Origin: Methylotenera sp.
GTDB lineage: Bacteria > Pseudomonadota > Gammaproteobacteria > Burkholderiales > Methylophilaceae
Direction: 5' to 3'
Assembly: GCA_014378845.1 (NCBI GenBank)
Contig: JACMNB010000059.1
Coordinates: 46,047-110,046, forward strand
DNA length: 64,000 nucleotides
Both the position numbers and the translations under genes were made by a program. The notes under the pieces are model-generated. The model saw only the letters and a program-made list of their open reading frames with translations. It was not told the origin of the DNA and did no database searches. Every line of letters starts with the position of its first letter. The first letter of the stretch is position 1. Below are positions 37,442 through 51,884 of the stretch, piece after piece.

Positions 37442-37540
37442 CGTCATTCCCGCGAAAGCGGGAATCCATTTTGAATTAAAACAGGCGCGCTCAATAAAAT
37501 GTTGGGCACGCAACTGGATACCCGCTTTCGCGAGTATGAC
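37442..37540. repeat. REP-like palindrome, family A (GTCATTCCCGCGAAAGCGGGAATCC ... GGATACCCGCTTTCGCGAGTATGAC), between metX and metW
   Basis: Arms shared with 39431 and 46832. Confidence 0.9.
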
Positions 37541-38869: not shown

Positions 38870-39943
38870 TTAAGAAATCTTACCAAGCGTCACGCGGTTA
38901 TTGCCGCTCAAATCTTTAATTGTTTCAACTTCGTTAAATCCAGCTTGTGTAAGCAAGTGTGCAACAGCTTCAGCTTGATTATAACCATGCTCTAAAAGTA
39001 AGCATCCATGCAGGATTAAGTGATTTTTTGCTTGCTTGATAATGGTGCGAATATCGTCTAAACCATCTGCGCCAGAAGCTAATGCGGATATTGGCTCAAA
39101 GCGTAAATCACTTTGTTTCAGGTGCGCGTCATCGGACTCGATGTAAGGTGGATTGCTAACGATGACATCAAATTTTTGCGCAATATTTTGGTGGTTTAAA
39201 GCCGAAAACCAATCGCTTAATATGAATTTCACATTACTGATATTTAAGTTTTGCGTGTTCTCAATCGCTATATCCAGCGCGGCTTGTGAGGCATCCAGCG
39301 CAGTGACATTCACTTGCGGGCGATGCTTGGCAATTGCTAATGCAATCGCGCCAGTGCCAGTGCCTAAATCCAAAACGCTAAACTCACACGCCTGCGTACC
39401 TTCACGGGTGTTATTCGCATCATTTACCTCGTCATTCCCACCAAAGTGGGAACCCATTTTTTGGTTTAAATTCAACATGGATTCCCACTTTCGCGAGAAT
39501 GACGGAGAAGAAGAGCTGTCGTTTTGTTGCCCTTCGACAAGCTCAGGGCGAACGGGCGCAGATAAATCCCGTTCGTGGTGAGCTTGTCGAACCATGATTG
39601 GAATCCTAGCAAGTGCCGCCTCCACCAACGTTTCCGTATCAGGTCGCGGAATCAGTGTAGCGGGTGTGACTTTTAGCTTTAAACCATAAAACTCACGATA
39701 ACCCAAAATATAAGCAATTGGCTCGCCGTTTAAACGTCTTTGCAGCATAGTTCTGTAAGCCTCATAGATATTTGGCTGCAGGGCATCGTTTTCATGTGCA
39801 ATTAACCATGCGCGATTTATATTTAGCACGTGTTGCAACAACAATTGCGCTTCAAGTTTTGCAGTTTCGGCCTGAATGCCTTGCGCCTTTAGTTGCACGG
39901 CGGCCAGTAAAAGTGTGGATTTTATTGAGTGAGCGTTGGTCAT
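38870..39943 (-). CDS. prmC: Peptide chain release factor N5-glutamine methyltransferase with an in-frame repeat-derived insertion
   Basis: TLIPRPDTETLVEAALARIP ... SVLDLGTGTGAIALAIA ... DVIVSNPPYIESDD (NPPY). Confidence 0.93.
   Translation of the reverse strand: MTNAHSIKSTLLLAAVQLKAQGIQAETAKLEAQLLLQHVLNINRAWLIAHENDALQPNIYEAYRTMLQRRLNGEPIAYILGYREFYGLKLKVTPATLIPRPDTETLVEAALARIPIMVRQAHHERDLSAPVRPELVEGQQNDSSSSPSFSRKWESMLNLNQKMGSHFGGNDEVNDANNTREGTQACEFSVLDLGTGTGAIALAIAKHRPQVNVTALDASQAALDIAIENTQNLNISNVKFILSDWFSALNHQNIAQKFDVIVSNPPYIESDDAHLKQSDLRFEPISALASGADGLDDIRTIIKQAKNHLILHGCLLLEHGYNQAEAVAHLLTQAGFNEVETIKDLSGNNRVTLGKIS
39431..39503. repeat. REP-like palindrome, family A, inside prmC
   Basis: GTCATTCCCACCAAAGTGGGAACCC ... 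GGATTCCCACTTTCGCGAGAATGAC. Confidence 0.92.
39529..39596. repeat. REP-like palindrome, family B, inside prmC
   Basis: GCCCTTCGACAAGCTCAGGGCGAACGG ... CCGTTCGTGGTGAGCTTGTCGAACCATG. Confidence 0.92.
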
Positions 39944-39960
39944 TTAATGGATAGGGTTTG

Positions 39961-40036
39961 AAGGGTGGGTAACTTTGTTACCCACGCGAAGGATGTTACA
40001 TACAGCGTTCCGCGTGGGTTCAAGAACCCACCCTAC
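39961..40036. repeat. REP-like palindrome, family E (GGGTGGGTAAC...GTTCAAGAACCCACCC)
   Basis: Inverted GGGTGGGT / ACCCACCC arms with inner CCCACGCG/CGCGTGGG arms. Confidence 0.8.
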
Positions 40037-40045
40037 TTTACTGGG

Positions 40046-40573
40046 TTAGTTGCTTATGTCAAATGGGCAAATATCTTGATGTGCCTTGCACAATTCCTCG
40101 TCATCAGGCAGGAATACATATGATTCTAATTCCTTATAGTAATTACCAGTGAAACCCCAGCGTGCATATGACCAGTGACCACTTGAACCGCCTTCTGTAA
40201 CTATCTGGCGCAATCTATTATTTTTCTCTTCTTTAAATTCAACCACGTTGGTGATTGTGTGCATGATGCTTTTGTAAGAGTTTTTGATTTTTGACACAAC
40301 CCAAACCGGTCCAGAACTCGCACCCCAGCCACATGCATTAGAGGTTGTTACAACAAAACTAGAATCTTTTTTACTATTAGAAAGATTAATAGCTTTACCT
40401 ATTAATTTGCAGTTCGTAAATTCAAACTGATTTTGTGCATGAAATGTTCTTTGAACGGTTTTTTCCACTTGCTTTGGTAATGGTTTAAGGCCTTCTTCTT
40501 CAATGTTGAAATCTTGAGCAAAAGCCTGATTTATGCAAACAAAGAATGCAATGATAAAGCGGTGTAAGTACAT
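40046..40573 (-). CDS. Hypothetical secreted protein
   Basis: N-terminal signal [20 protein letters not shown]; no family recognised; lies between prfA and prmC. Confidence 0.6.
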   Translation of the reverse strand: MYLHRFIIAFFVCINQAFAQDFNIEEEGLKPLPKQVEKTVQRTFHAQNQFEFTNCKLIGKAINLSNSKKDSSFVVTTSNACGWGASSGPVWVVSKIKNSYKSIMHTITNVVEFKEEKNNRLRQIVTEGGSSGHWSYARWGFTGNYYKELESYVFLPDDEELCKAHQDICPFDISN

Positions 40574-41655
40574 TAATTATCCTCACCCAAACTCGCCAGC
40601 AAATCCGCCTGATGTTCCGCCATCAATGCGCCAATTAATTCATCCATATCGCCTTCGGTAATCGCATCAATTTTGTACAAAGTTAAATTAATGCGGTGGT
40701 CGGTGATGCGGCCTTGCGGGTAGTTGTAGGTTCTAATGCGCTCGCTACGGTCGCCAGAGCCGATGAGCGATTTACGCTCAGAGGCAATTGCGCTATTTTG
40801 TGCATCGACTTGTTTGCTTTTAATGCGCGCGGCCAAAACCGCTAAAGCCTGCGCTTTATTGGCGTGTTGGCTGCGGCCTTCTTGGCATTCCACCACAATG
40901 CCTGTGGGCGCGTGTGTAATGCGCACGGCAGAATCGGTTTTGTTAATGTGTTGGCCGCCTGCGCCGCTGGCTCTATAAGTGTCAATGCGAATATCGGTGG
41001 GGTTGATGATGGTGTCGTTAATTTCGTCGGCCTCTGCCAACACAGCCACTGTACACGCGCTAGTGTGAATGCGGCCTTGGGTTTCGGTATCTGGCACACG
41101 TTGCACACGATGCACGCCAGACTCAAACTTCATTTTAGAATACGCGCCGTAGCCTTCAATTTTAGCGATAATTTCTTTGTAGCCGCCCACTTCTGACTCG
41201 TTGGCCGACATAATCTCGACTTTCCATTTTTGCCGATCGGCATAGCGGCTGTACATGCGGTATAAATCGCCGCAAAATAAGCCCGATTCATCGCCGCCAG
41301 TACCTGCGCGAATCTCCAAAAAGATATTTTTGTCATCATTGGGGTCTTTTGGCAGCAGCAGCAATTGCAATGCGCTTTCTACTGCTTCTAGTTTGACTTT
41401 ACCGCTGGCAATTTCCTCTTGTGCGAACTCTTTCATCTCTATGTCGCTTAACATGGTTTGGGCTTCTGCAATGTCTTTTTCGGCTTGTTCAAACGCATGA
41501 TATTGCTCGACAATCGGCGTGATTTCAGCGTGCTCTTGGGTAATTTTTCGATAATTATCCATGTTGTTGGTGACGCCTTCGCTGCTCATCAGGCGGTTTA
41601 GTTCTTCTAGGCGCTCGCTCAAAATGGCGAGTTTTCTTAACATACTTGGTTTCAT
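40573..41655 (-). CDS. prfA: Peptide chain release factor 1
   Basis: [21 protein letters not shown] (GGQ). Confidence 0.98.
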
Positions 41656-50014: not shown

Positions 50015-50089
50015 CGTCATTCTGAGCATAGCGAAGAATCCATGAAGTTTGCTAAAAAAACTGGATTCTTCGCTATGCTCAATGACGGT
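50015..50089. repeat. REP-like palindrome, family C, between trpC and hemB
   Basis: CGTCATTCTGAGCATAGCGAAGAATCCA ... CTGGATTCTTCGCTATGCTCAATGACGG. Confidence 0.9.
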
Positions 50090-51795: not shown

Positions 51796-51884
51796 CGTCA
51801 TTCTGAGTGTAGCGAAGAATCCAGTTTTTAGGTTTTCCCTTACATCGCAAACTGCTGGATTCTTCGCTATGCTCAGAATGACGG
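51796..51884. repeat. REP-like palindrome, family C, upstream of the GIY-YIG gene
   Basis: CGTCATTCTGAGTGTAGCGAAGAATCCAG ... CTGGATTCTTCGCTATGCTCAGAATGACGG. Confidence 0.92.

Follow-up and report, generated by a model that had tools for sequence, protein, structure and literature searches.

A Methylotenera sp. genome carries palindromic repeat DNA within the coding region of prmC, which raises the question of how a conserved gene came to hold such sequence and what this means for its product. The window, i.e., the whole stretch of 64,000 nucleotides analyzed here, contains prmC (peptide chain release factor N5-glutamine methyltransferase) at 38870..39943 on the minus strand. It is an intact, single-copy gene of 357 aa, and its frame is open throughout, insert included. 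The unusual part is the linker between the helix LVEAALARI and the strand VLDLG (39383..39605, minus strand). Counted from PRPDTE to VLDLG, it comprises 85 residues compared to the usual 17. An earlier note on this DNA had reported an addition of about 75 residues; the actual gain is 68. The insert quoted in that note agrees letter for letter with the translated ORF.

Outside the insert, the product has the features of a PrmC. It reaches 304.7 bits with the PrmC equivalog TIGR03534 (cut-off 199.1) and keeps the catalytic motifs. This score and the NPPY motif, which is invariant across 64 aligned PrmCs, place it in the PrmC class, and NPPY is intact downstream of the insert, as had been noted. 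The core is under purifying selection, with a dN of 0.17 and a dS of 1.4 between the window genome (G000) and its relative G009. The earlier note had also considered an inactive gene replaced by a second copy. No second prmC was found in the genome, the next-best match being a paralogue of 36% identity. The substrate, release factor 1, is encoded nearby by an intact prfA (40573..41655, minus strand; TIGR00019 527.2 bits, cut-off 423.25), the gene order being hemA, prfA, a 175-aa ORF and prmC. Methylation of RF1 and RF2 is the predicted activity of the protein, judging from its sequence. The 175-aa ORF (40046-40573, minus strand) has no NCBIfam match.

A pseudogene, or repeats joined into a chimera during assembly, could also give such a picture. 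The assembly is fragmented (2.26 Mb in 79 contigs), and repeats are prone to misassembly. However, the frame runs through the whole insert of this conserved single-copy gene, and the protein shows 51-74% identity to its relatives without any frameshift. The same site is moreover filled in many independent assemblies, including the complete single-contig genome G208, which makes an assembly error unlikely. An artefact or a decaying gene is therefore considered extremely improbable.

The insert consists mainly of two palindromes. Element A (39430..39504), translated as PSFSRKWESMLNLNQKMGSHFGGNDE, forms a hairpin with arms at 39430-39460 and 39474-39504 that are 84% complementary. CGTC-tagged REPs have been described as having an unpaired CGTC end, a stem of 8-9 bp starting with AT, a loop of 4-5 nt and a CCA tail (Di Nocera, De Gregorio, Rocco 2013, PMC3733652). 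The genomic copies of element A read CGTC-ATTCCCGC-GAAA-GCGGGAAT-CCA, i.e., an unpaired CGTC, an 8-bp stem, a GAAA loop and a CCA tail, and the copy in prmC is slightly decayed. The family is multicopy and occurs mostly as head-to-head dimers, which places it in the REP superfamily. Its core has 36 matches in the window genome and 33 in G009, and a reversed control pattern has none; an intergenic copy of the core for comparison lies at 37442..37468 on the plus strand. Longer palindromes of the form CGTCATTCTGAG..CTCAGAATGACG, present at 50015-50087 and 51796-51883 of the window with several further copies on other contigs, belong to a CGTC-like family that is related to element A but distinct from it.

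Element B (about 39530..39594; core TTCGACAAGCTCASSRCGAACGG, translated as MVRQAHHERDLSAPVRPELVEG) is unrelated to element A. Its hairpin arms (39533-39556 and 39568-39591) are 88% complementary. The core occurs eight times in the window, where 0.00 copies are expected, and is multicopy genome-wide. No CGTC or GTAG tag is found at the expected place in the core, so that element B falls outside both the CGTC- and the GTAG-tagged superfamilies, and a literature search by sequence found no paper reporting this core as a repeat. The two palindromes are separated by the spacer QQNDSSSS (39505..39529), and a non-repeat tail, VNDANNTREGTQACEF (39383..39429), remains ahead of SVLDLG. The claim of two unrelated palindromes thus holds, and the positions given for A (39431-39503) and B (39529-39596) were correct to within a few bases.

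Both elements had been described as otherwise intergenic. Intergenic copies do exist, such as the A core mentioned above, but element B is also found in frame in other genes. Of the 92 element copies inspected in the window genome, those clearly in frame within a conserved gene were in prmC, alaS and mutL. The alanyl-tRNA synthetase gene alaS (contig C37, L018 1471-1533) contains a complete B hairpin in frame, ...ELASLAPVRPEPVEGQATHGSTSSPRTPILNGDLAFKLHDTYGFP..., and mutL (contig C15, L024 1512-1534) half a B element, NSLNPVRPELVEGYPKYQ. Therefore, prmC is not unique in its genome.

The predicted structure indicates where the added residues would lie. In an AlphaFold2 model built from the alignment of 64 PrmCs, the pLDDT falls to about 41-62 at residues 121-180 and exceeds 90 over most of the core, in line with the linker disorder for which structure prediction had been proposed as a check. 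Among solved structures, Foldseek best matches the model to E. coli PrmC bound to RF1 (2b3t_A; E 2.2e-32, TM 0.96 on target). The insert is thus predicted to be a disordered segment, the rest of PrmC folding confidently. A low-confidence insert on a core resembling E. coli PrmC would be expected to emerge from the enzyme as a flexible loop, and the cell presumably tolerates PrmC in this form. The site had been taken for the boundary between the N-terminal and methyltransferase domains. It is instead a loop running from the helix at residues 101-113 to strand beta-1 at residues 189-193, where the methyltransferase domain begins.

A comparison of prmC across relatives reveals that the insert is present in some and absent from most. 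Linkers were read in 103 PrmC genes, nearly all from Methylophilaceae, after 187 genomes of the family had been searched with a profile. The linker has exactly 17 aa in 68 of these genes. At least 36 residues are found in 14 of the 103, a biased frequency as linkers were taken preferentially from the best profile matches. All 14 long linkers are derived from palindromes; a few of 20-31 residues were left without a class. A homologous linker free of repeats, which would have spoken against the insertion of repeats, was therefore not seen among the long linkers of the family. CGTC-type elements account for 12 of the 14 (G000, G009, G103, G125, G167, G168, G170, G191, G192, G193, G201 and G208), so that element A has counterparts at the same site and in the same frame in 11 other genomes. 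The remaining two are of the CCCTCTCCC type (G176 and, less clearly, G107). Hence, at least two unrelated repeat families occur in the PrmC linkers of Methylophilaceae.

In three or four cases, two unrelated elements share one linker. Besides elements A and B in the window, G193 combines half a CGTC element with a CCCTCTCCC repeat, and in G176 a CCCTCTCCC repeat adjoins what is probably a CGTC remnant. G103 carries element A, possibly with a degenerate B beside it. Linkers of intermediate length, e.g., in G207 (28 aa, SSFSRND), G174 (29 aa) and G169 (19 aa, HENDE), were read as remnants. Across the 103 prmC genes, the linker holds every one of the ten strongest hairpins, with scores of 16 to 31, and the best hairpin elsewhere scores 14.

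The pattern extends beyond the family. G385, from another family of the order, has a CCCTCTCCC-type element in its PrmC linker, and the pattern occurs 64 times in its own genome. In one Hydrogenovibrio PrmC, the linker contains a third repeat family, whose arm matches about 168 places in its own genome vs. two for the control. The 45-aa linker of G343 (L360) was read without a clear palindrome being recognized. Another long linker, in G478 (L371), is repeat-like by appearance alone.

Taken together, the likely explanation is a working prmC with a beta-1 loop that a CGTC REP dimer and then element B entered, the loop being a permissive site and not a domesticated domain. A CGTC-type REP dimer would have entered the loop, and the unrelated palindrome B would have followed in the window lineage; A arriving before B is the probable order. 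Both insertions would have kept the frame, and the repeats would be translated as a disordered surface loop leaving the fold undisturbed. REP DNA may land widely, the in-gene survivors being those copies that keep the frame in loops able to bulge out. The loop would be one of the few places in PrmC tolerating such DNA, so that REPs gather there repeatedly across lineages; its tolerance would also explain its use by unrelated repeat families. Elements would accumulate, decay and be trimmed, and the linker would sometimes revert to 17 residues. The protein is presumably translated and active, and the insert is probably neutral.

The manner in which the CGTC copies arrived is a separate matter. 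On the PrmC tree, the inserts are scattered: G001, with a 17-aa linker, is the sister of G009 within an insert-bearing group, and the 17-aa genomes G102 and G180 are the sisters of the insert-bearing G103 and G168, respectively. Each of the 12 CGTC copies is read in the same frame, and most of them have their 3' junction two codons ahead of [VI]LDLG. These features would fit a CGTC REP mobilizer with a preference for the exact position in prmC, independent insertions hitting the same base and frame, as would the close 17-aa relatives of insert-bearers (G103/G102, G168/G180 and G009/G001). Unrelated families, i.e., element B, the CCCTCTCCC type and the Hydrogenovibrio repeat, cannot, however, share one target preference although they occupy the same loop. 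Moreover, no target-site duplications were seen when the junctions were inspected by eye. Flank lengths of 8 codons ahead of the element and 2 behind it recur in both clades, which fits a single origin as well.

A single old insertion in the ancestor of the Methylotenera-like clade, followed by many losses through recombination with an empty allele, would account for these recurring flank lengths. Among the seven genomes searched, an exact 19-nt loop stretch has a single occurrence each in G000 and G009, in prmC in either case, and none elsewhere, which favors shared descent for that pair. Local recombination is hinted at, weakly, by a dip in similarity near the junction in G102/G103 and by the rare ICDLG beside the junction common to G001 and G005. 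In contrast, the PrmC tree would require in the order of 20 losses, mostly to exactly 17 codons. In the CCGAC subtype, the loops are in part a trait of the repeat family at large and not specific to prmC, so that the descent of this subtype is uncertain; the idea that common loops prove a single origin was dropped for this reason. The stems also differ by species (CGAAAG in G000, CGTAGG in G009 and CCGACGAAAG in G191). In G009, the prmC copy (L228) has an 18-nt in-frame tandem duplication, NLNLNQELNLNQKM, in the loop of the CGTC dimer. Both of its stems differ from those of G000 at matching positions with pairing kept, which suggests conversion between copies.

Between several species, copies of the element share 84-94% of their DNA sequence, compared to 39-54% at the third codon positions of prmC, which neutral drift under purely vertical descent would not produce. 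For instance, G191 and G201 share 94% of the element vs. 47% of the surrounding third codon positions. The elements are thus younger than the divergence of the genes, exchanged, or constrained as DNA. Targeted insertion draws on the same observation, as the elements are more alike than surrounding synonymous sites and their edges are sharp. On this evidence, targeted insertion appears somewhat unlikely, and the single old insertion is possible, with the balance tilted against it. Both concern arrival and not function, and are compatible with a tolerant loop. Tolerance is the most economical account, although it leaves unexplained why the CGTC copies have a frame and a junction in common; for these, targeting or a single origin would have to be added.

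Alternatively, the loop may have gained a function in PrmC (binding, regulation or stability), or an mRNA hairpin may regulate prmC translation. Indeed, the RNA of the insert folds at -84.5 kcal/mol vs. -43.5 for shuffled sequences (z = -10.9), well outside what chance would give, and the elements persist across species, more conserved than synonymous sites. Yet most relatives manage with the 17-residue linker, and the peptide sequence, its length and even the repeat family vary by species. The insert is also predicted to be disordered. Synonymous differences are sparse in the element, as they would be in recent copies, while those of the core are near saturation, and such conservation does not look driven by the protein. 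Domestication is accordingly judged highly unlikely, and a permissive loop is preferred.

The general phenomenon is known for GTAG- and CGTC-tagged REPs. CGTC REPs have been reported as head-to-head dimers in frame within conserved genes, e.g., in recB of two Xanthomonas species at about the same site, REPs have been reported in repair and tRNA synthetase genes, and flexible loops were suggested to tolerate them (PMC3733652). Element A is alike in being an in-frame head-to-head CGTC dimer in a conserved gene, and the placements in alaS and mutL agree with the reported gene classes. The parallel with the Rickettsia palindromic elements drawn in the earlier note is apt, and was also drawn in that study, which assigns RPE-4 and RPE-6 to the CGTC repeats (PMC3733652). 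They likewise are in-frame translated palindromes in functional genes, function being inferred from conservation in prmC. Their hosts and sequences differ from the present case, the general CGTC class being what they have in common (PMC3733652). The data support the view that selfish repeat DNA has turned into protein sequence inside a conserved gene. As translated intragenic REPs are already published, the prmC insert itself is a further case.

The novelty lies in how a single enzyme loop has been used again and again, by no fewer than three unrelated repeat families and in two distant groups. Unlike the cases described in PMC3733652, the insert adds a second, non-CGTC palindrome, and a single loop is filled by unrelated families across about a dozen species; the main text of that paper makes no mention of Methylo- organisms. 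A search of open-licence papers turned up no case of an enzyme loop filled repeatedly by unrelated repeats, and a search for PrmC and REP found nothing on the subject among titles and abstracts. The loop could even be a true hotspot for palindromic repeats in Pseudomonadota, with unrelated REPs delivered to one position of prmC and exchanged between species, perhaps since a feature of that position is recognized by the machinery of mobilization or recombination. This is thought unlikely; if true, selfish repeats would be docking time and again in a conserved enzyme.

Across dozens of species, the loop offers a natural series of alleles: empty, full, double, decayed and restored. From this series, one can gauge how selfish non-coding DNA turns into protein sequence, how long such sequence persists and by what route it is removed. 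In E. coli, the loss of PrmC causes a clear growth defect, so that complementation offers a direct measure of what translating a REP costs. Furthermore, REP-derived peptides in annotated proteins, such as PVRPELVEG and SFPRRRES, may be real translated inserts.

As for mobility, no dedicated transposase has been reported for CGTC REPs (PMC3733652). Element A resembles the RAYT-associated REPs (REP/BIME with a Y1 transposase) in its short palindromes and head-to-head pairs. The Y1 transposase (PF01797) has four matches in the window genome, two of them interrupted by stops, and none in G009 and G103, both of which have CGTC elements. A link was not adopted, as the transposase does not track the repeats in these three genomes. 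Two neighboring Y1-type matches on contig C76 (105243-106958; L389, L393) have one in-frame stop each and are probably decayed. Within the window, short self-complementary stretches, GTGGGTAAC..GTTACCCAC and GTGGGTTCAAGAACCCAC, lie just upstream of the prmC start (39955-40045); they fall below the repeat-calling thresholds used and resemble yet another repeat.
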